Assembly (NCBI RefSeq): GCF_002270055.1
Contig: NZ_NIBG01000018.1
Span: 1-64,000, forward strand
Length of the DNA: 64,000 bases
Source of the DNA: Anaeromicrobium sediminis
GTDB taxonomy: Bacteria; Bacillota; Clostridia; Peptostreptococcales; Thermotaleaceae
Direction: 5' to 3'
The notes under the pieces are model-generated. The model made no database searches. It was not told where the DNA came from and saw only the letters and a program-made list of their open reading frames with translations. The position numbers and the translations under genes were made by a program. How positions within the stretch are numbered: position 1 is the stretch's first letter; every line of letters starts with the position of its first letter. Of this stretch, positions 34,566 to 41,284 are shown piece after piece.

Positions 34566-35879
34566 ATGAAATATAATACTCAAATGGAAGCGGCTAAAGC
34601 TGGTGTAATAACAAAGGAAATGGAAATAGTATCGGAAAAGGAAAATATGGATATACACAAATTAAGAGACTTAGTGGCAAAAGGATTAGTAGTAATACCA
34701 GCTAATAAGAATCATGAAAGTATTAGTCCAGAAGGAATTGGTAGTGGACTTAGAACTAAAATAAATGTAAATTTAGGAATATCGAAGGATTGTCCTAGCA
34801 TAGAAAAAGAAATTGAAAAGGTAAAAATGGCCATAGATATGAAAGCAGAAGCCATAATGGATTTAAGTTCATTTGGAAAAACAGAGGAATTTAGAAAAAA
34901 AATAGTAGAAATTTCTCCAGCTATGATAGGAACTGTACCAATTTATGATGCAGTTGGTTTTTATGATAAGGAACTGAAGGATATAAAGGCAGAAGAGTTT
35001 TTAGATGTGGTAAGAAAGCATGCAAAGGATGGTGTGGACTTTGTTACTATCCATGCTGGGTTAAATAAAGAAACTGTAAATACATTCAAAAGAAATAAAA
35101 GATTAAATCATATAGTATCTAGGGGTGGATCATTAACATATGCATGGATGGAATTAAATAACATGGAAAATCCTTTTTATGAATACTATGACGAACTTTT
35201 AGATATATGTAGAGAATACGATGTTACCTTAAGTTTAGGTGATGCATTAAGACCAGGAAGTATAAATGACTCTACTGATGCAAGCCAAATTAAAGAATTA
35301 ATAACATTAGGAGAACTTACTAAGAGGGCTTGGGAGAAGGATGTACAAGTTATGATAGAGGGTCCAGGTCATATGGCAATAAATGAAATAGAGGCAAATA
35401 TGCTACTTGAGAAAAGATTATGTCATGGAGCTCCATTTTATGTATTAGGTCCTATAGTTACAGATGTGGCACCAGGATATGACCACATAACAAGTGCCAT
35501 AGGAGGTGCTATTGCAGCTAGCTCAGGAGCAGACTTCTTATGCTATGTAACTCCTGCAGAACATCTTAGATTACCAAACTTAGAGGATATGAAGGAAGGA
35601 ATTATAGCATCTAAAATAGCAGCCCATGCAGGAGATATTGCTAAAAATATACCGGGAGCAAGGAATTGGGATTTTGCAATGAGTGAAGCTAGACAAAATT
35701 TAGACTGGGAAAAAATGTTTAAATTGAGTATGGATCCAGAAAAAGCAAGAAGATATAGGGAAGAATCTATGCCACATGATGAAGATAGCTGTACCATGTG
35801 TGGAAAAATGTGTTCAATGAGAAACATGAACAAAGTAATGGCTGGGAAAGATATAAACATATTAAGAGATGATGATTAA
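34566..35879 (+). CDS. thiC: Phosphomethylpyrimidine synthase ThiC
   Basis: Radical SAM enzyme converting 5-aminoimidazole ribotide (AIR) into HMP-phosphate for thiamin. The 437-residue product is the short anaerobe form. It has [31 protein letters not shown] and [17 protein letters not shown], and the C-terminal cluster motif CTMCGKMC (Cys-x2-Cys-x4-Cys) near residue 415. Good AGGGGGAG site. It is followed after two bases by a purF paralogue. Confidence 0.97.
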
Positions 35880-35881
35880 TC

Positions 35882-37186
35882 ATGAAAATAGATGAGTTTA
35901 ATGATAAATTCAAAGAAGAATGTGGAATATTGGGAGTATTTTTTAATAAAAAAGAAAATATGGAAACAAAAGTATACTCAGGCCTATTGGCCCTACAACA
36001 TAGGGGTCAAGAAAGTTGTGGTATATCCTATAGAAATGATAATGAAATTGAAAATATTAGGAAGATGGGATTAGTAGATAACTTATTTGAAGGACTTCAG
36101 ATTGATACTAATCTATTGATAGGCCATGTAAGATATTCCACATGGGGGGAGAGTACTATTAAAAATAGTCAACCCCTCCTTAGTAATAATATTAGTTTAG
36201 CTCATAATGGAACCCTAACAAATGGAGAGGATATTAAAAAAATTCTTGAAAAAAAGGGAAGAAAATTTAGTACGGATACGGATTCAGAAGTAATATTAAA
36301 AGTATTTGAAAAAGATGGTATAAGGGGGATTTACAATAATATAAAGGGTGCATATGCAGTAGTTATTATAAAAGATAATGAATTAATAGCCATGAGGGAC
36401 CCTTTAGGAATTCGCCCCATATGTATAGGAAAGATCCAGAACGGGTACATAGTAGCATCAGAAAGTTGCGCCATAGAGGCTATGGGAGGCTCATTTATAA
36501 GAGACTTAATGGCAGGAGAAGCAATAAAAATAGATAAAAATGGAGTTTCCGTAATAAGAAAAGGAAATGAAGTATGCAATACATGTGCCTTTGAATATAT
36601 ATACTTTGCTAGGGAAGACTCTAAGATAGACGGAATTTGTGTAGGGCAAATAAGAAGTAAATTAGGAAAAATTTTAGGAAAAGAAGACTTTAGTAAGGCT
36701 CATATGGTCATGGGAGTGCCAGACACAGGAACTTTACCATCCATAGGTTATGCTGACCAATCTAATATTAAATATGAACCAGGAATCCTCAGAAATAAAT
36801 ATGTAGGAAGAACCTTTATAGCTCCAAAGAATAGGAAAAACAAAGTAAATGATAAGTTTTTTATATTAAAGGATAAAGTAAGAGGAAAAGATATAGTTGT
36901 AATAGATGATTCCTTAGTAAGTGGAACTACAAGTAAGGAATTAATAGGTAAGTTAAAAAAAGTAGGTGCTAATAGGATACATTATAGGATAGCTTCTCCT
37001 ATTATAAGGGGGAAATGTGACCTGGGAATAAATATGAAGAATGAAAATATAATAGGTCACTTTAAAAATCTAGAAGAAATAAGAGATGAAATAGGTGCGG
37101 ATACATTAAAATATATAAGTATAGATAATTTAATAAGGGTATTAGGGAAAAATATTTGTACGCTATGTTTTACTAATAAAGTATAA
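35882..37186 (+). CDS. Amidophosphoribosyltransferase PurF paralogue in the thiamin operon
   Basis: Makes phosphoribosylamine from PRPP and glutamine. The 434-residue product has a short propeptide before the nucleophile Cys (ECGILGVF, Cys14), a glutaminase domain, and a PRTase domain. Fe-S ligand Cys (FEYIYFARED region, RGKCDLG, CTLC) match the Bacillus type. The PRPP loop reads VIDDSLVSGTT instead of the usual VDDSIVRGTT, and the flexible catalytic loop differs. Co-transcription with thiC suggests it feeds the AIR branch for thiamin rather than bulk purine synthesis. Confidence 0.85.
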   Translation: MKIDEFNDKFKEECGILGVFFNKKENMETKVYSGLLALQHRGQESCGISYRNDNEIENIRKMGLVDNLFEGLQIDTNLLIGHVRYSTWGESTIKNSQPLLSNNISLAHNGTLTNGEDIKKILEKKGRKFSTDTDSEVILKVFEKDGIRGIYNNIKGAYAVVIIKDNELIAMRDPLGIRPICIGKIQNGYIVASESCAIEAMGGSFIRDLMAGEAIKIDKNGVSVIRKGNEVCNTCAFEYIYFAREDSKIDGICVGQIRSKLGKILGKEDFSKAHMVMGVPDTGTLPSIGYADQSNIKYEPGILRNKYVGRTFIAPKNRKNKVNDKFFILKDKVRGKDIVVIDDSLVSGTTSKELIGKLKKVGANRIHYRIASPIIRGKCDLGINMKNENIIGHFKNLEEIRDEIGADTLKYISIDNLIRVLGKNICTLCFTNKV

Positions 37187-37217
37187 AGGGAGATGGTAAT
37201 TATATCATCTCTTTTTA
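37184..37217 (+). terminator. Terminator after the thiC-purF operon
   Basis: GAGATG and CATCTC pair around a short loop and are followed by TTTTTATTTT, directly after the purF-type stop codon. Confidence 0.7.
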
Positions 37218-37271
37218 TTTTATGGATCAAAATATTCCACATAAATTAAATTTAAAAGTGGAAAAAAGTAG

Positions 37272-37300
37272 TTGAAAGTTTATTATAAAGATGATATAAC
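37272..37300 (+). promoter_or_regulatory. Promoter of the arsR operon
   Basis: TTGAAA (37272-37277) and TATAAC (37295-37300) with a 17-bp spacer. The downstream edge overlaps the palindromic operator, so repressor binding would block polymerase. Confidence 0.7.
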
Positions 37301-37325
37301 TATATTAGAATATTCTAATATAGTT
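37298..37325 (+). promoter_or_regulatory. Perfect 28-bp palindromic ArsR operator
   Basis: The sequence is an exact palindrome with core ATTAGAATATTCTAAT, the kind of site bound by ArsR/SmtB dimers. It covers the -10 end and likely start of transcription, 15 bp before the arsR ATG. Autorepression released by a metalloid is inferred. Confidence 0.75.
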
Positions 37326-37340
37326 AAAAGGAGGATATGA

Positions 37341-37661
37341 ATGAATAATTTATATTATGATTTATCTGCTTCCTTTATGAAGGCATTAGCTCATCCCACT
37401 AGGGTTAAGATAATAGAGAGATTAAAGGGAGAAGATGAACTTTGTGTGTGCCACATATATGAGGATCTAGAATTAGAGCAATCTAATGTATCACAACATT
37501 TGAAAATACTAAAGGATAAGGGGATTTTAGAGAGTAGAAAAGACGGATTAAAAGTTATGTACAAAGTTAAATATAAGGAAACAATAGAAATATTAAATCT
37601 AGTAAAGAATATATTGGCAACGGAACTAAAAGAAGCGCAAGAAAACTTAAGGGGGGATTAG
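37341..37661 (+). CDS. arsR: ArsR-family metalloid-responsive repressor
   Basis: 106 residues with a winged helix-turn-helix (SNVSQHLKILKDKGILESRK). The motif ELCVCHI (Cys35 and Cys37) at the start of the recognition region is the As(III)/Sb(III)-binding site of classical ArsR. First gene of a four-gene operon with a permease and two thioredoxin-like proteins. Confidence 0.9.
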   Translation: MNNLYYDLSASFMKALAHPTRVKIIERLKGEDELCVCHIYEDLELEQSNVSQHLKILKDKGILESRKDGLKVMYKVKYKETIEILNLVKNILATELKEAQENLRGD

Positions 37662-37662
37662 G

Positions 37663-38610
37663 GTGTTAAAACAATTTGCTGACTTCATGGTTAGGGATTT
37701 ATTTAAATTAAATTTAGAATCCCATTTAGGTTCAAGTGCACAGTTTTTCATATACGATACATTAAAGATTATAATACTTTTAAGTTTTATGATCTTTACC
37801 ATATCCTATGTGAGAAGTTATTTTCCACCAGACAAGGTTAAGAATCTTTTAGGTAAAATTGGTGGAGTAGGAGCTCATGTTCTAGCTTCTATTTTAGGTG
37901 TATTATCACCATTCTGATCTTGCTCTACTGTGCCTATATTTATAGGTTTTGTGGAATCGGGTATTCCACTGGGAGTTACTTTTACATTTTTAATAACGTC
38001 ACCTATAGTAAATGAAATAGCAATAGGTTTTTTATTTATAACCTTTGGTGCTAAAATAGCAATAATATATACATTGGCAGGGATGATTATAGGTGTTGTG
38101 GCAGGAATAGTAATAGAGAAGATGAACTTAACCCATTTGGTAGAAAGTTATGTATATGAAATGCATATGGGAGAAGCAGAAAGTGAGAGATTAGATTTTA
38201 ATGGAAGAATAAAATTTTCACTTATAGCAGTAAGGGATATTGTAAAGAGAGTATGGTTATATATTATAATAGGAATAGGAATTGGAGCTGCTATCCACGG
38301 ATATGCACCAGAAGGTTTTATGGTTAAATATGCGGGGCCTAATAATCCTATAGCCGTATTTGTGGCAGTTGTTTTAGGAATTCCCCTTTACTCTAATGCA
38401 GTAGGGACTATTCCTATAGTAGAAGCACTAATTAATAAAGGGGTAGGTGTTGGAACAGCTTTAGCCTTTATGATGTCTGTAGTAGCCCTATCTTTACCAG
38501 AGATGATTTTGTTAAAGCAAGTAATAAAACCTAAATTAATTGCCATATTTGTGGCAATAACAGGTACTAGTATAATATTAGTAGGATACTTGTTTAACAT
38601 TATTTTATAG
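37663..38610 (+). CDS. DUF318/ArsP-type permease, predicted selenoprotein (Sec85)
   Basis: A 315-codon frame (GTG start, AAGGGGGG site) interrupted once, by TGA at 37915-37917. Before it the frame reads LGVLSPF and after it SCSTVPIFIGF. The family motif is LSPFCSCSTVPIF, so the TGA replaces the first Cys exactly. About eight membrane helices and the second repeat motif GIPLYSNAVGTIP are intact on both sides. Relatives export trivalent organoarsenicals or metals. I read the TGA as selenocysteine. From memory, similar selenoprotein permeases have been grouped in a proposed selenocysteine-assisted organometal system (SaoE-like); I could not check this. Confidence 0.8.
37932..37947 (+). promoter_or_regulatory. 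Candidate SECIS hairpin of the permease
   Basis: GCCTAT and ATAGGT pair around ATTT, starting 15 nt after the TGA, the distance at which bacterial SECIS elements occur. The stem is short and the loop lacks the usual G, so this is only suggestive. Confidence 0.3.
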
Positions 38611-38626
38611 TAAAGGAGGAGAATTT

Positions 38627-38857
38627 ATGAAAATAAAAATATTGGGAACTGGCTGTAAAAATTGTAATACTTTATATGATTATACTTGTGAAGTAGTGGA
38701 AAAACTAAATCTAGATGCACAGGTAGAAAAAGTAACGAATTTAAAGGATATATTATCTTATGGTGTGATGAAACCACCTGCATTAGTGGTAGATGAAAAG
38801 GTAGTAGTATCTGGAAGAGTTCCTAGCAAAAACGAAATAGAAAAAATATTAAAGTAA
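38627..38857 (+). CDS. Thioredoxin-like protein (redox-active disulfide protein 2 type)
   Basis: 76 residues with a thioredoxin fold and active site GTGCKNCNTL near the N-terminus, then PPALVVDEKVVVSGRVPS, typical of the small MTH895-like family. Such genes often sit beside DUF318 permeases. It keeps the ordinary Cys-x2-Cys. It may supply electrons to the permease or to its substrate. Confidence 0.88.
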   Translation: MKIKILGTGCKNCNTLYDYTCEVVEKLNLDAQVEKVTNLKDILSYGVMKPPALVVDEKVVVSGRVPSKNEIEKILK

Positions 38858-38871
38858 GGGGATTGTTATTT

Positions 38872-39114
38872 ATGGAAATTAGATTATATGAGCAAGTGTG
38901 TTGAGGACCATCAAAACTTGCTATCATCGTGGATGAGGCTTTAACAAAGCTAAACTTAAATGAAGAATTTGAAATGGTTGGAGATTTAGCTCAAATGGTT
39001 GAAGAAGGTGTAACAGAAGTACCTGCCTTAAAGGTAAATGGTAAAGTAATGGTGGAAGGCAGACTACCAGAAGTAGATGAGGTTATGAACATATTAAAAG
39101 AAGAGCTAGCGTAA
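38872..39114 (+). CDS. Thioredoxin-like protein, predicted selenoprotein (Cys10-Sec11)
   Basis: An 80-residue frame starting at the ATG at 38872 reads EIRLYEQVC, then TGA (38902-38904), then GPSKLAIIVDEALTKL and on to a thioredoxin-fold C-terminus (VPALKVNGKVMVEGRLP) like that of the preceding gene. The TGA falls in the active site, giving Cys-Sec-Gly-Pro-Ser. No start codon suits the shorter downstream frame. A Sec reading is therefore favoured over a nonsense mutation. It resembles small selenoprotein thioredoxins I recall as SaoT-like, unverified. Confidence 0.8.
38924..38936 (+). promoter_or_regulatory. Candidate SECIS hairpin of the thioredoxin-like selenoprotein
   Basis: TCATC and GATGA pair around a GTG loop 19 nt after the TGA. 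Distance and the G/U in the apical loop fit bacterial SECIS elements; the stem is only five base pairs. Confidence 0.4.
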
Positions 39115-39117
39115 AGT

Positions 39118-39142
39118 AAAAGGGCCCCTTAAAGGGCCTTTT
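39118..39142. terminator. Bidirectional terminator between convergent genes
   Basis: AAAAGGGCCC pairs with GGGCCTTTT (one bulge) around a short A-rich loop, with T-runs on both strands. It ends the arsR operon and the convergent MBL-fold gene. Confidence 0.75.
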
Positions 39143-40220
39143 ATTTTGGATAATTATATGAACCTGGTGTTACATTAAAAGTAATCTCATTACCATTAGA
39201 TGTACTAATTATTGTACCAGATTCGTCTGTTCTATATACAGGTATTCCCCTTAGTCTAAGCCTTTCTATAGTTTCCTTATGGGGATGCTTGTAATCATTT
39301 TTCCTTCCACAGGATATGACAGCATATTTAGGAGATACCTCACCTAAGAAGGCCTCACTAGTGGAAGATCTACTTCCATGATGACCTACCTTTAATACAT
39401 TAGATTTCAAACTAATTCTACTTCTTACCAAATCTTCCTCAGAGTCCTTTTCAGAATCTCCCGTAAATAGATAGGAAGTGTTTCCAAATAGGACTTTAAT
39501 TACTATGGAATAATCATTGAGATTATCATATTTTTTATCCTTTGGAGCCAGTACAACACAAGTGGCATCACCAATGTTAAAAGTATCTCCAACCTTAGGT
39601 TTTGTTGCTTTAATATTTTTTGTTTTTATTGCCGTTATTACGTCCCTATAGGTCTTTGTAGTATGAATTATATCTGGTAACAATACTTTTCCAATTTGAA
39701 AGTTATTTATTACCGTATCTAAAGAACCTATATGATCTTCGTGGGGGTGAGTTCCTACTACATAATTTAGTTTTTTAATATTATTTTTTCTAAGATAATC
39801 TAATAATAATTTAGAATCAGAATTATTACCAGCATCAATGAGCATAGATTCTCCATTATTTTCAATTAATATGGAATCAGCTTGCCCCACATCTATAAAA
39901 TGAACTCTTAGTTTTCCACTATAATCTTGAGATACATTAACTTCCTCTGATAGGGCTGGAGTATCTTTTTTTATTTTATCCTTTAAAGATGATAAAAGGG
40001 AAGAAACATTAAAATTCTTTACAGGAATCCTTTGAACTTCTTCGCCTAAAGGGAAAAGATATGTGGATGTTAGAAAAAATATTAAAAATAAAGAACCATA
40101 ATACTTAATAACATTAATGCGTCTTTTGTTTTTAGTCCAAATTACATATTTTGGTTCTACTAAGCCTAGGACAAAGAGCGCTAGAAAGAAAAAAGCTACA
40201 AAAGAAAATAAAATATCCAT
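39141..40220 (-). CDS. ComEC-like MBL-fold metallohydrolase, membrane-anchored
   Basis: 359 residues: two N-terminal hydrophobic segments, a linker, then a metallo-beta-lactamase domain from about residue 105. Motifs: FIDVGQADSILIE, the metal site THPHEDHIGSLD, LFTGDSEKDSE and KVGHHGSRSSTSEAF. It matches the C-terminal domain of ComEC, thought to act as an extracytoplasmic nuclease, but lacks the ComEC channel. AAAGGAG site on the minus strand. Confidence 0.85.
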   Translation of the reverse strand: MDILFSFVAFFFLALFVLGLVEPKYVIWTKNKRRINVIKYYGSLFLIFFLTSTYLFPLGEEVQRIPVKNFNVSSLLSSLKDKIKKDTPALSEEVNVSQDYSGKLRVHFIDVGQADSILIENNGESMLIDAGNNSDSKLLLDYLRKNNIKKLNYVVGTHPHEDHIGSLDTVINNFQIGKVLLPDIIHTTKTYRDVITAIKTKNIKATKPKVGDTFNIGDATCVVLAPKDKKYDNLNDYSIVIKVLFGNTSYLFTGDSEKDSEEDLVRSRISLKSNVLKVGHHGSRSSTSEAFLGEVSPKYAVISCGRKNDYKHPHKETIERLRLRGIPVYRTDESGTIISTSNGNEITFNVTPGSYNYPK

Positions 40221-40432
40221 ATAATTGCTCCTTTAATATTTATATAAGTCTAAATAAAATTTTATCACATTTTGTCAAATTAGTTTATAGGATTAAGATA
40301 GGATTAATAAATTAAATAATAAGATGGTAGGAAAATTTCAATAATTCCACAACGGATAAAGAATAGAAATTATAGGATCATAAAAATAAGGGCATAATTA
40401 CTAATATAATCACAGGCAGATAGGAGGATTAT

Positions 40433-41284
40433 ATGGATAAGAAGGTAGCATTAGTTTTAGAAGGTGGTGGCCTAAGGGGGAATTTTACCTCGGGTGTATT
40501 AGACTATTTTTTAGATAATGATATACATATTCCATACGTAATAGGAGTTTCTATGGGAGCTTGTAATGGGTCCACTTATGTATCAAAACAAAGGGGAAGA
40601 AATTACAGGGTAAATACGGAGTTTCTAAGGGATAAGAGGTATTTTAGTTATAGAAATTTAATAACTAATGGAGAATTATTTGGAATGGACTTTATATTTG
40701 GAGAGCTACCTAAAAATATAGATCCTTTTGATATGGATACATTTATGAATTCAGAGAAAGAGTTCATAGCTGTGGCCACAGATTGTCGTACGGGAGAGGC
40801 CACATACTTTAAAAAGAATGATCCAGAGGATATATATGAGGTGTGTAAAGCATCTAGTAGTTTACCTCTCATATCTAATATAGTCGAAATAAATGGGAAA
40901 AAATATTTAGATGGAGCTATTGCTGATGCAATTCCAGTTAAAAAGGCCCTAGAAGATGGAAATGATAAAATTGTACTAGTTCTCACAAGGCCCATCTCCT
41001 ATATTAAAAAACCTTTAAGATTTGGGAAATTAATAGAGTATAAGTATAGGGAATATCCTAATTTGGTAAATTCTTTGCTAACAGGACATATGGCATATAA
41101 TGAAACTGTGGAGTACATAAGACAATTAGAGGAAGATGGAAAAGCCTTTGTTATTCGACCAAATGAACATCTACAAGTTGGAAGAATAGAGAGAAATAGG
41201 ACGAAAATAGATGGGATTTACAAAATAGGATATGAAATTGCAAAAGAAAGTAAGGATAAATTAATCGAATTTATAAATGTGTAA
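40433..41284 (+). CDS. Patatin-like phospholipase
   Basis: 283 residues with the complete catalytic set: oxyanion loop EGGGLRGNFTSG, nucleophile elbow GVSMGA and the catalytic Asp in YLDGAIADA. No signal peptide, so probably a cytosolic acyl hydrolase acting on membrane lipids. Flanked by its own terminator. Confidence 0.9.
   Translation: MDKKVALVLEGGGLRGNFTSGVLDYFLDNDIHIPYVIGVSMGACNGSTYVSKQRGRNYRVNTEFLRDKRYFSYRNLITNGELFGMDFIFGELPKNIDPFDMDTFMNSEKEFIAVATDCRTGEATYFKKNDPEDIYEVCKASSSLPLISNIVEINGKKYLDGAIADAIPVKKALEDGNDKIVLVLTRPISYIKKPLRFGKLIEYKYREYPNLVNSLLTGHMAYNETVEYIRQLEEDGKAFVIRPNEHLQVGRIERNRTKIDGIYKIGYEIAKESKDKLIEFINV

Follow-up and report, generated by a model that had tools for sequence, protein, structure and literature searches.

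The window, i.e. the whole stretch of DNA that was analysed, comprises 64,000 nucleotides of Anaeromicrobium sediminis (contig NZ_NIBG01000018.1). It carries a compact set of four genes in the order ArsR-type regulator, permease with a presumed selenocysteine (Sec, U), ArsE-like thioredoxin, and a second thioredoxin-like protein also presumed to contain Sec. The features of this region are as follows:

37298..37325, no strand: 28-bp perfect palindrome AACTATATTAGAATATTCTAATATAGTT just 5' of the regulator gene, a probable operator
37341..37661, + strand: gene of an ArsR/SmtB-type metalloregulator with an ELCVC motif (HTH_5, 52.4 bits; NF033788, 93.4 bits, cut-off 55)
37663..38610, + strand: ArsP_1 permease gene, 315 aa, residue 85 taken as Sec, residue 87 Cys
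37915..37917, + strand: in-frame TGA of the permease gene, taken as selenocysteine (U85)
37932..37947, + strand: hairpin 1 of the putative permease Sec signal, 6 bp, loop AUUU
37951..37969, + strand: hairpin 2, GUGGAAU-CGGGU-AUUCCAC, 7 bp, G at loop position 2
38627..38857, + strand: gene of a small thioredoxin-like protein of the MTH895/ArsE type, active site CKNC (TIGR00412, 108.5 bits, cut-off 62)
38872..39114, + strand: gene of the second putative selenoprotein, thioredoxin-like, motif C10-U11-GPSK (PF13192, 49.4 bits, cut-off 24.8)
38902..38904, + strand: second in-frame TGA, taken as selenocysteine (U11), conserved in relatives
38922..38939, + strand: site of the second gene's Sec hairpin, with a GUG loop and 5 of 7 consensus pairs formed
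39119..39142, + strand: terminator-like hairpin with a T-rich tail, after the last gene of the operon

The permease gene starts with GTG one base past the stop codon of the regulator gene, and a single transcript for the four genes is proposed because of their spacing. A promoter scan gave results at the chance level (12 found, 12.3 expected). Among 17 upstream regions examined, similar TATTAGAATATTCTAATA palindromes are present in L078, L079, L030, and L082, related imperfect ones in most of the others, and none close to the gene in L091.

The permease reading frame extends from GTG 37663 to TAG 38610, with the TGA counted as one residue. It matches the Pfam model PF03773 (ArsP_1) over model positions 2-293 of 294 with 242.2 bits (gathering cut-off 32.3), and with this near full-length match the claim of the earlier note that the frame is intact on either side of the TGA is borne out. 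The residues around the codon are LSPF-U-SCSTVPIFIGF. Purifying selection persists downstream of the TGA, as pN/pS calculated against nine Sec relatives is 0.16-0.21 3' of the codon and 0.22-0.35 5' of it.

The search for relatives of the permease covered 59 near genomes, 391 genomes of the class, and named genomes, from whose scan the best 80 of 242 were kept; the 137 loci obtained gave 122 distinct proteins after merging identical ones. The codon aligned with the TGA of the window is TGA in 15 of them, TGT in 61, TGC in 46, and no other in any; the aligned stretches of all 122 are free of further in-frame stops. A column limited to these three codons, in a set of homologues with no other stop, argues that the TGA is not there by chance. 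The residue missing from the family motif had been predicted to be Cys, and the column indeed holds only Sec or Cys (15 TGA, 107 TGT/TGC). Weaker or broken matches with several stops or TAA (e.g. G392, G133, G422) lie outside the 137 loci. Also left out were lower-ranked matches to which no locus was assigned; these have no internal stop, except in a few broken ones and in the distant G189, G290, and G251. The latter three were flagged as having one TGA, but their aligned part contains none: the TGA codons either precede this part or come just past the last conserved residue, and thus give no evidence of Sec there. A pseudogene ending at a real stop, or a sequencing error for TGT or TGC, might be thought of in view of the single base by which TGA differs from either codon and of the draft state of the genome (55 contigs), but it is hardly credible given that 15 distinct proteins, encoded in different assemblies that include those of named strains, share this TGA, that selection persists past the codon, and that no aligned homologue has a stop elsewhere, and for the family it is taken as excluded.

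The TGA permeases come from assemblies as different as those of Anaerosolibacter carboniphilus, Sporosalibacterium faouarense, and Desulfoscipio geothermicus. On a quick maximum-likelihood tree the Sec/Cys label changes at least eight times, with five changes forced by starred branches, and none of 500 shuffles matched this. The clade of the window permease (23 rows) includes 12 of the 15 Sec permeases and 11 Cys rows, while the remaining Sec permeases are L116 of D. geothermicus and L148 of Firmicutes bacterium UBA5766, both on long branches, and L062. The genome of A. sediminis itself holds the Sec permease and a Cys paralogue (63% identical). Matches were also found in plasmids: that of Ilyobacter polytropus shows an arsR-permease-thioredoxin layout with an annotated permease gene that is uninterrupted, and the other lies in a stretch of an Acetoanaerobium record that carries no annotation.

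Some further arrangements of ArsP_1 genes were noted. In D. geothermicus a second, uninterrupted ArsP_1 permease gene (L116 7678-8604, 195.8 bits) is located ca. 1.7 kb downstream of that of the Sec permease. Adjacent pairs of half-size genes occur at L208 2468-3558, L201 73-1084, and L081 3451-4462; at L208 each of the two genes corresponds to the first half of the ArsP_1 model (54.4 and 28.0 bits; cut-off 32.3), and the other two pairs resemble this one by eye, so split permeases of the ArsP_1 type may exist.

The Sec machinery, whose absence would speak against the decoding of TGA as Sec, is complete in the genome of A. sediminis. It comprises selB (391.6 bits, cut-off 242), selA (624.9 bits, cut-off 268), and a tRNA-Sec gene with the anticodon TCA (70.8 bits, cut-off 47), situated near each other and near one selD on contig 1; a further selD is located on contig 3. 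An in-frame TGA in an SG-U motif is present in each of the two selD genes (L162 and L163, respectively); a gene for a LysR-type regulator, recognised by eye, adjoins the one on contig 3. The machinery was also checked in all 15 TGA-permease genomes and in 23 chosen Cys-permease genomes. Among the former, selA scores over its cut-off in all 15 and tRNA-Sec in 13; tRNA-Sec falls short in a MAG and in a genome with a listed completeness of 80%, where it reaches 46.7 bits (cut-off 47). Among the latter, selA was found in 21 and tRNA-Sec in 20, and since most of these genomes have both, the machinery does not separate Sec from Cys permease genomes. Insertion of another amino acid at the UGA, e.g. 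Cys or Trp, by reassignment or suppression of the stop codon has nothing to point to beyond the in-frame TGA, and is very improbable beside a complete Sec system, a column that alternates with Cys only, and three long ORFs of the window that end in TGA. The statement of the earlier note that other genes of the window end normally in TGA is true, yet the argument is thin, as among the 45 non-overlapping ORFs of at least 150 aa 29 end in TAA, 13 in TAG, and only these three in TGA.

The UGA of the permease mRNA is followed by two hairpins, located, when counted from the U of UGA as 1, at positions 18-33 (hairpin 1) and 37-55 (hairpin 2). Four of the six pairs of hairpin 1 are largely forced by the peptide PIFIG, which leaves two informative ones, joining the third bases of the Val and Gly codons and of the Pro and Ile codons. 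Both are formed in 14 of 15 Sec rows versus 29 of 107 Cys rows (Fisher p 1.0e-6; hairpin p-values overstate independence, the rows being related by descent). The outermost pair is GC, GU, UA, CG, or AU in different rows. Over the whole alignment of hairpin 1, 98.9% of cells are paired and the covariation is 0.248 versus 0.051 in shuffled alignments, with none of 500 shuffles as high; it decreases once the pairing partners are slid. The number of pairs changed on both sides, one of five measures, is two, a value reached by 76 of 500 shuffles. Hairpin 1 shows compensatory synonymous changes.

Hairpin 2 forms all seven pairs in 13 of 15 Sec rows versus 4 of 107 Cys rows, and among the rows encoding the same peptide, VESGIP, it is complete in 13 of 13 Sec and 4 of 16 Cys ones. 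Both hairpins together are complete in 13 Sec rows versus three Cys rows; the failures among the Sec permeases concern L148 (one pair in hairpin 1 and three in hairpin 2) and L062 (two pairs in hairpin 2). The mean folding energy of the first 48 nt is little better for Sec than for Cys rows (-13.1 vs -10.7), and the gap is clearer for the 57 nt after the UGA (-16.6 vs -12.3). In several single-sequence folds, including the 60-nt fold of the window itself, an extended hairpin 1 beats hairpin 2, and the latter is part of, or an alternative to, this extended form.

According to a 2026 review, a bacterial SECIS element (bSECIS) has a loop of 3-9 nt with a G in its first two positions, a stem of 4-16 bp, a distance of 16-37 nt from UGA to the loop, and an MFE of -7.5 or lower, and a subset of bSECIS departs from this model (PMC13188914). 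Hairpin 1 fits in loop (4 nt), stem (6 bp), distance (20 nt), and MFE (-12.9 in a 48-nt window), but the G in the first two loop positions is absent, while hairpin 2 has the loop G, but its loop starts 40 nt after the UGA; hairpin 1, when folded, brings it nearer to the UGA. In the search for a bSECIS just after the codon a covarying hairpin was found, although neither hairpin follows every published rule. The permease Sec signal may be a unit made up of both. An Rfam scan of positions 35000-41000 reported nothing at E ≤ 5.

The same pairs bear on the permeases that have Cys in place of Sec. In Candidatus Petromonas tenebris (L080, the same protein as L023) the codon is TGC, yet both Sec hairpins are kept, and the genome retains selA, tRNA-Sec, and the second selenoprotein gene with its TGA. 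This could perhaps be a recent Sec-to-Cys change with a leftover signal, an explanation that is only suggestive since the Cys rows L111 and L131 of Halanaerobium likewise form both hairpins.

A UGA read by the Sec machinery might also serve as a conditional switch, the cell making an 84-residue N-terminal piece without selenium and the full permease with it. Such a role follows from the general behaviour of Sec UGA codons, and the genome keeps its Cys paralogue beside acr3, but the 84-residue piece ends inside the permease core and bears no sign of being a functional unit, and the switch is considered improbable. With the machinery present, the column restricted to Sec and Cys, and a covarying hairpin downstream, the suggestion of a probable selenocysteine made in the earlier note is strengthened: to judge from the sequences compared, decoding of the UGA at 37915 as Sec is nearly certain.

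The TGA at 38902-38904, found in the same operon, was absent from the earlier finding. Of 297 genomes of the order searched for the second selenoprotein, 51 gave matches, many of them to the CxxC paralogue, and in 20 of the 297 the match holds exactly one in-frame TGA. The TGA occupies the same position in all 21 rows checked, after C10 or G10, and the motif is mostly C-U-x-x-S-K or G-U-G-x-S-K; in the homologue L176, Cys-Cys stands in place of Cys-Sec. Copies of this family, mostly with TGA at the C-U or G-U position, are found at 38872-39114 of the window and in L166, L168, L170, L173-L175, L200, and L205-L208. The Sec hairpin of this family, derived from 20 of the 21 rows (L177 was left out as a near copy of L208), has a GUN loop and 7 bp and lies 24 nt from the UGA. 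Changes on both sides occur at three pairs, and the covariation is 0.232 versus 0.132 in shuffles, none of 500 reaching the observed value; in the number of pair types the alignment does not exceed the shuffles. The copy in the window forms five of the seven pairs, with a 48-nt MFE of -6.7.

With TIGR00412 the second selenoprotein scores 51.7 bits, below the cut-off of 62, and its relatives lie on both sides of this value (L166, 68.3 bits; L200, 41.5; L208, 37.8). None of the NCBIfam selenoprotein models reported it, and no match to it was found in plasmids at E 1e-5. As recognised by eye in translated frames, its copies in L199, L200, L201, L205, and L207 have as neighbour a gene of the ArsR type, one for an ArsE-like thioredoxin, or one for a permease; other copies sit among unrelated genes. 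Some copies are situated apart from any permease, for instance near a gene for an iron- or cobalamin-type substrate-binding ABC protein, noted at L200 and L207 (scores under the cut-off) and L205 (by eye). Selenoproteins with PF13192 are listed in Table 1 of PMC13188914 in CxU and UxC forms only, and no row of the whole table corresponds to the CU protein of ca. 80 aa. PF13192 is shared with the Brachyspira proteins Sec.1 and Sec.2, in which, as described in PMC5330540, Sec is situated in an extension before the domain, whereas here U11 stands beside C10 in the motif CU. The CU thioredoxin of the permease operon is likely an undescribed selenoprotein family.

A neighbour encoding a CxxC thioredoxin-like protein was found at 14 of the 15 Sec permease loci, and an arsR-like one at 13 of 15 (tblastn, E ≤ 1e-3). 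Arsenic genes surround some of the relatives. The surroundings of the Sec permease L148 include an arsM-type methyltransferase gene (344.5 bits, cut-off 263) as well as a piece resembling the C-terminal part of acr3 (222.7 bits, under the cut-off), and those of the Sec permease L062 include genes of the arsA and arsD families (354 and 145 bits with Pfam models). An ORF between these arsenic genes and the L062 permease (L164 3180-3782) matches NF049942, 'DF family (seleno)protein', with 56.5 bits (cut-off 70), and has no in-frame TGA. The Cys permease L201 has arsM-type (301.6 bits) and arsA (352.5 bits) genes in its vicinity, an arsD-like gene recognised by eye, and an arsenate reductase-like gene (114 bits, under the cut-off). 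In A. sediminis the Cys paralogue (contig 3, L157 1956-4376) is followed by a thioredoxin-like gene, recognised by eye, and acr3 (380 bits, cut-off 283), a run which is likely an arsenic operon in the same cell. The only arsenic-type enzyme found near a Sec permease of the window's clade is an arsC-like one, under its cut-off, ca. 2 kb from L081; no arsenic enzyme gene adjoins the operon in the window, where the neighbours are thiC, an amidotransferase-domain gene, and a gene for a protein of the metallo-beta-lactamase fold.

A metalloid is indicated as the cargo by the ArsR-type regulator and by the arsenic genes round some of the relatives, and on these grounds export of a metalloid or an organometalloid by the permease is somewhat favoured. 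Cu, Zn, Cd, or Hg is a possible substrate; in PMC3219624, SO_0444 is tied to Cu and Zn through the fitness of mutants.

A structure model of the permease built with 91 aligned homologues has a pLDDT of 80 and a pTM of 0.76, with helix breaks at residues 82-85 and 240-245; an earlier model from 13 close sequences (pLDDT 43) was set aside as poor. The U/C-S-C motif is invariant in all 91 aligned permeases, and residue 245 (N245 in the window) is Asn or Asp in every one of them. Comparison of the two halves of the permease with hhalign gave a weak match (E 0.0058, probability 6%), in which residue n pairs with n+160 and U85 is opposite N245. Among the 50 VIA-align matches listed, ranks 1-46 are elevator-type transporters with Z from 14.3 (NaDC1) to 6.0, ArsB having 9.6, and the unrelated rows have Z of 5.5 and below; the tool cautions that helical proteins may give Z near 13. 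These 46 presumably represent the classes DASS with Pho90 and plant DiT, CNT, TRAP, and ArsB, and one MleN model. Foldseek alone found no match to the model at E ≤ 0.001, and a search of PDB sequences with the permease profile gave six weak matches only, with E of 0.29 or worse, and thus no sequence relation to ArsB or DASS transporters.

The likeness to ArsB of Leptospirillum ferriphilum (10tp) and the DASS transporters consists in the structural match of the model and in its two helix breaks, which resemble two hairpin tips. In ArsB, as described in PMC13381914, the metalloid is recognised mainly by polar residues on two hairpin loops, Asn111 and Asn337 at the tips replace the SNT motif, and weak contacts to the metalloid are stressed. 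Analogy with ArsB would make Sec85 and Asn/Asp245 the paired hairpin-tip residues of the permease and place Sec85 in a substrate-contacting element, as the predicted fold resembles that of elevator-type transporters including ArsB.

Sec might instead serve redox control, U85 and Cys87 forming a selenylsulfide across the intervening Ser that the two small thioredoxins reduce and that switches the permease on and off. The invariance of U/C-S-C and the CxxC thioredoxin-like protein encoded near nearly all Sec permeases are in keeping with it, but the type of the regulator and the neighbours of the relatives point to metalloids, and in the predicted fold the position coincides with the cargo-binding hairpin tip; this role is thought rather unlikely, though less so than the switch, and cargo binding by Sec is preferred.

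As regards known systems, ArsP (PF03773, ArsP_1) is a methylarsenite efflux permease. The window permease belongs to the same Pfam family (242 bits), and arsenic genes are located near some of its relatives, but it has Sec for the first Cys of the CSC motif. Its best NCBIfam match is SaoE (NF040736), with 126.4 bits, below the cut-off of 325; SaoE is, by its name, part of the SAO (Sec-assisted organometal) operon. In the selenoprotein Table 1 of PMC13188914, SaoE is absent, and a selenoprotein form of the SO_0444 Cu/Zn efflux family is listed (NF033936, UxC, WP_014809615.1, 'GenBank annotated'), so that, at the level of annotation, Sec has already been recorded in a relative of the window permease. 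The window permease can be aligned with NF033936, and it has U-S-C where the motif listed for that family is U-x-C; however, the score of 93.2 bits lies far under the cut-off of 300, which places it outside the SO_0444 family, and the operon differs in having the ArsR-type regulator and ArsE-like thioredoxins. The window permease belongs to a subfamily separate from SO_0444 and SaoE, with an operon of its own. In the literature searched, a scope outside which the SAO/Tso papers (PMC9879109, PMC12013261) and the RefSeq annotation of the relatives lie, no printed account of a Sec ArsP-type permease was found, the sole item on point being the SO_0444 row in Table 1 of PMC13188914; the main text of the deep-Sep paper contains no mention of permease, ArsP, transporter, or thioredoxin.

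Taken as a whole, the locus probably, and in our view with good confidence, represents a Sec-decoded elevator-type metalloid exporter within a four-gene metalloid-response operon with two selenoproteins. The UGA at 37915 would be decoded by the genome's own SelA, SelB, SelC, and SelD, guided by the RNA structure just downstream, and insertion of Sec would yield the full-length permease with the motif P-F-Sec-S-Cys-S at a helix break. The permease most likely exports a trivalent metalloid or organometalloid of the arsenic type by an elevator mechanism, with Sec85 and Cys87 at the tip of the first hairpin, where ArsB has a metalloid-contacting Asn. In contrast to ArsB, covalent binding of a soft trivalent centre would be expected of the U-x-C pair, a mode of contact that would fit arsenicals with methyl or aryl groups or other soft metals. 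For the two small thioredoxin-like proteins, a cytoplasmic role in binding or reducing the metalloid, or the Sec-Cys pair of the permease, is most likely. Direct hand-over between the two selenoproteins of the operon is a tentative proposal. Equally tentative is a relay in which a dedicated cytosolic Cys-Sec carrier of the thioredoxin fold would take up a trivalent organometalloid and deliver it to a Sec at the moving tip of an elevator hairpin; this Sec would act within the membrane as a cargo ligand and not as a redox catalyst, and the Sec insertion signal, with its two hairpins, would differ from the classical bacterial type.

A plain annotation pipeline would probably truncate both TGA-containing genes of the operon at the UGA. 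With Sec where the cargo of a membrane pump presumably binds, Cys forms among its close relatives, and several exchanges between Sec and Cys along the tree, the permeases constitute a natural experiment, which asks what selenium gains in the binding of a metal or metalloid, and in A. sediminis a single genome carries both the Sec and the Cys version.
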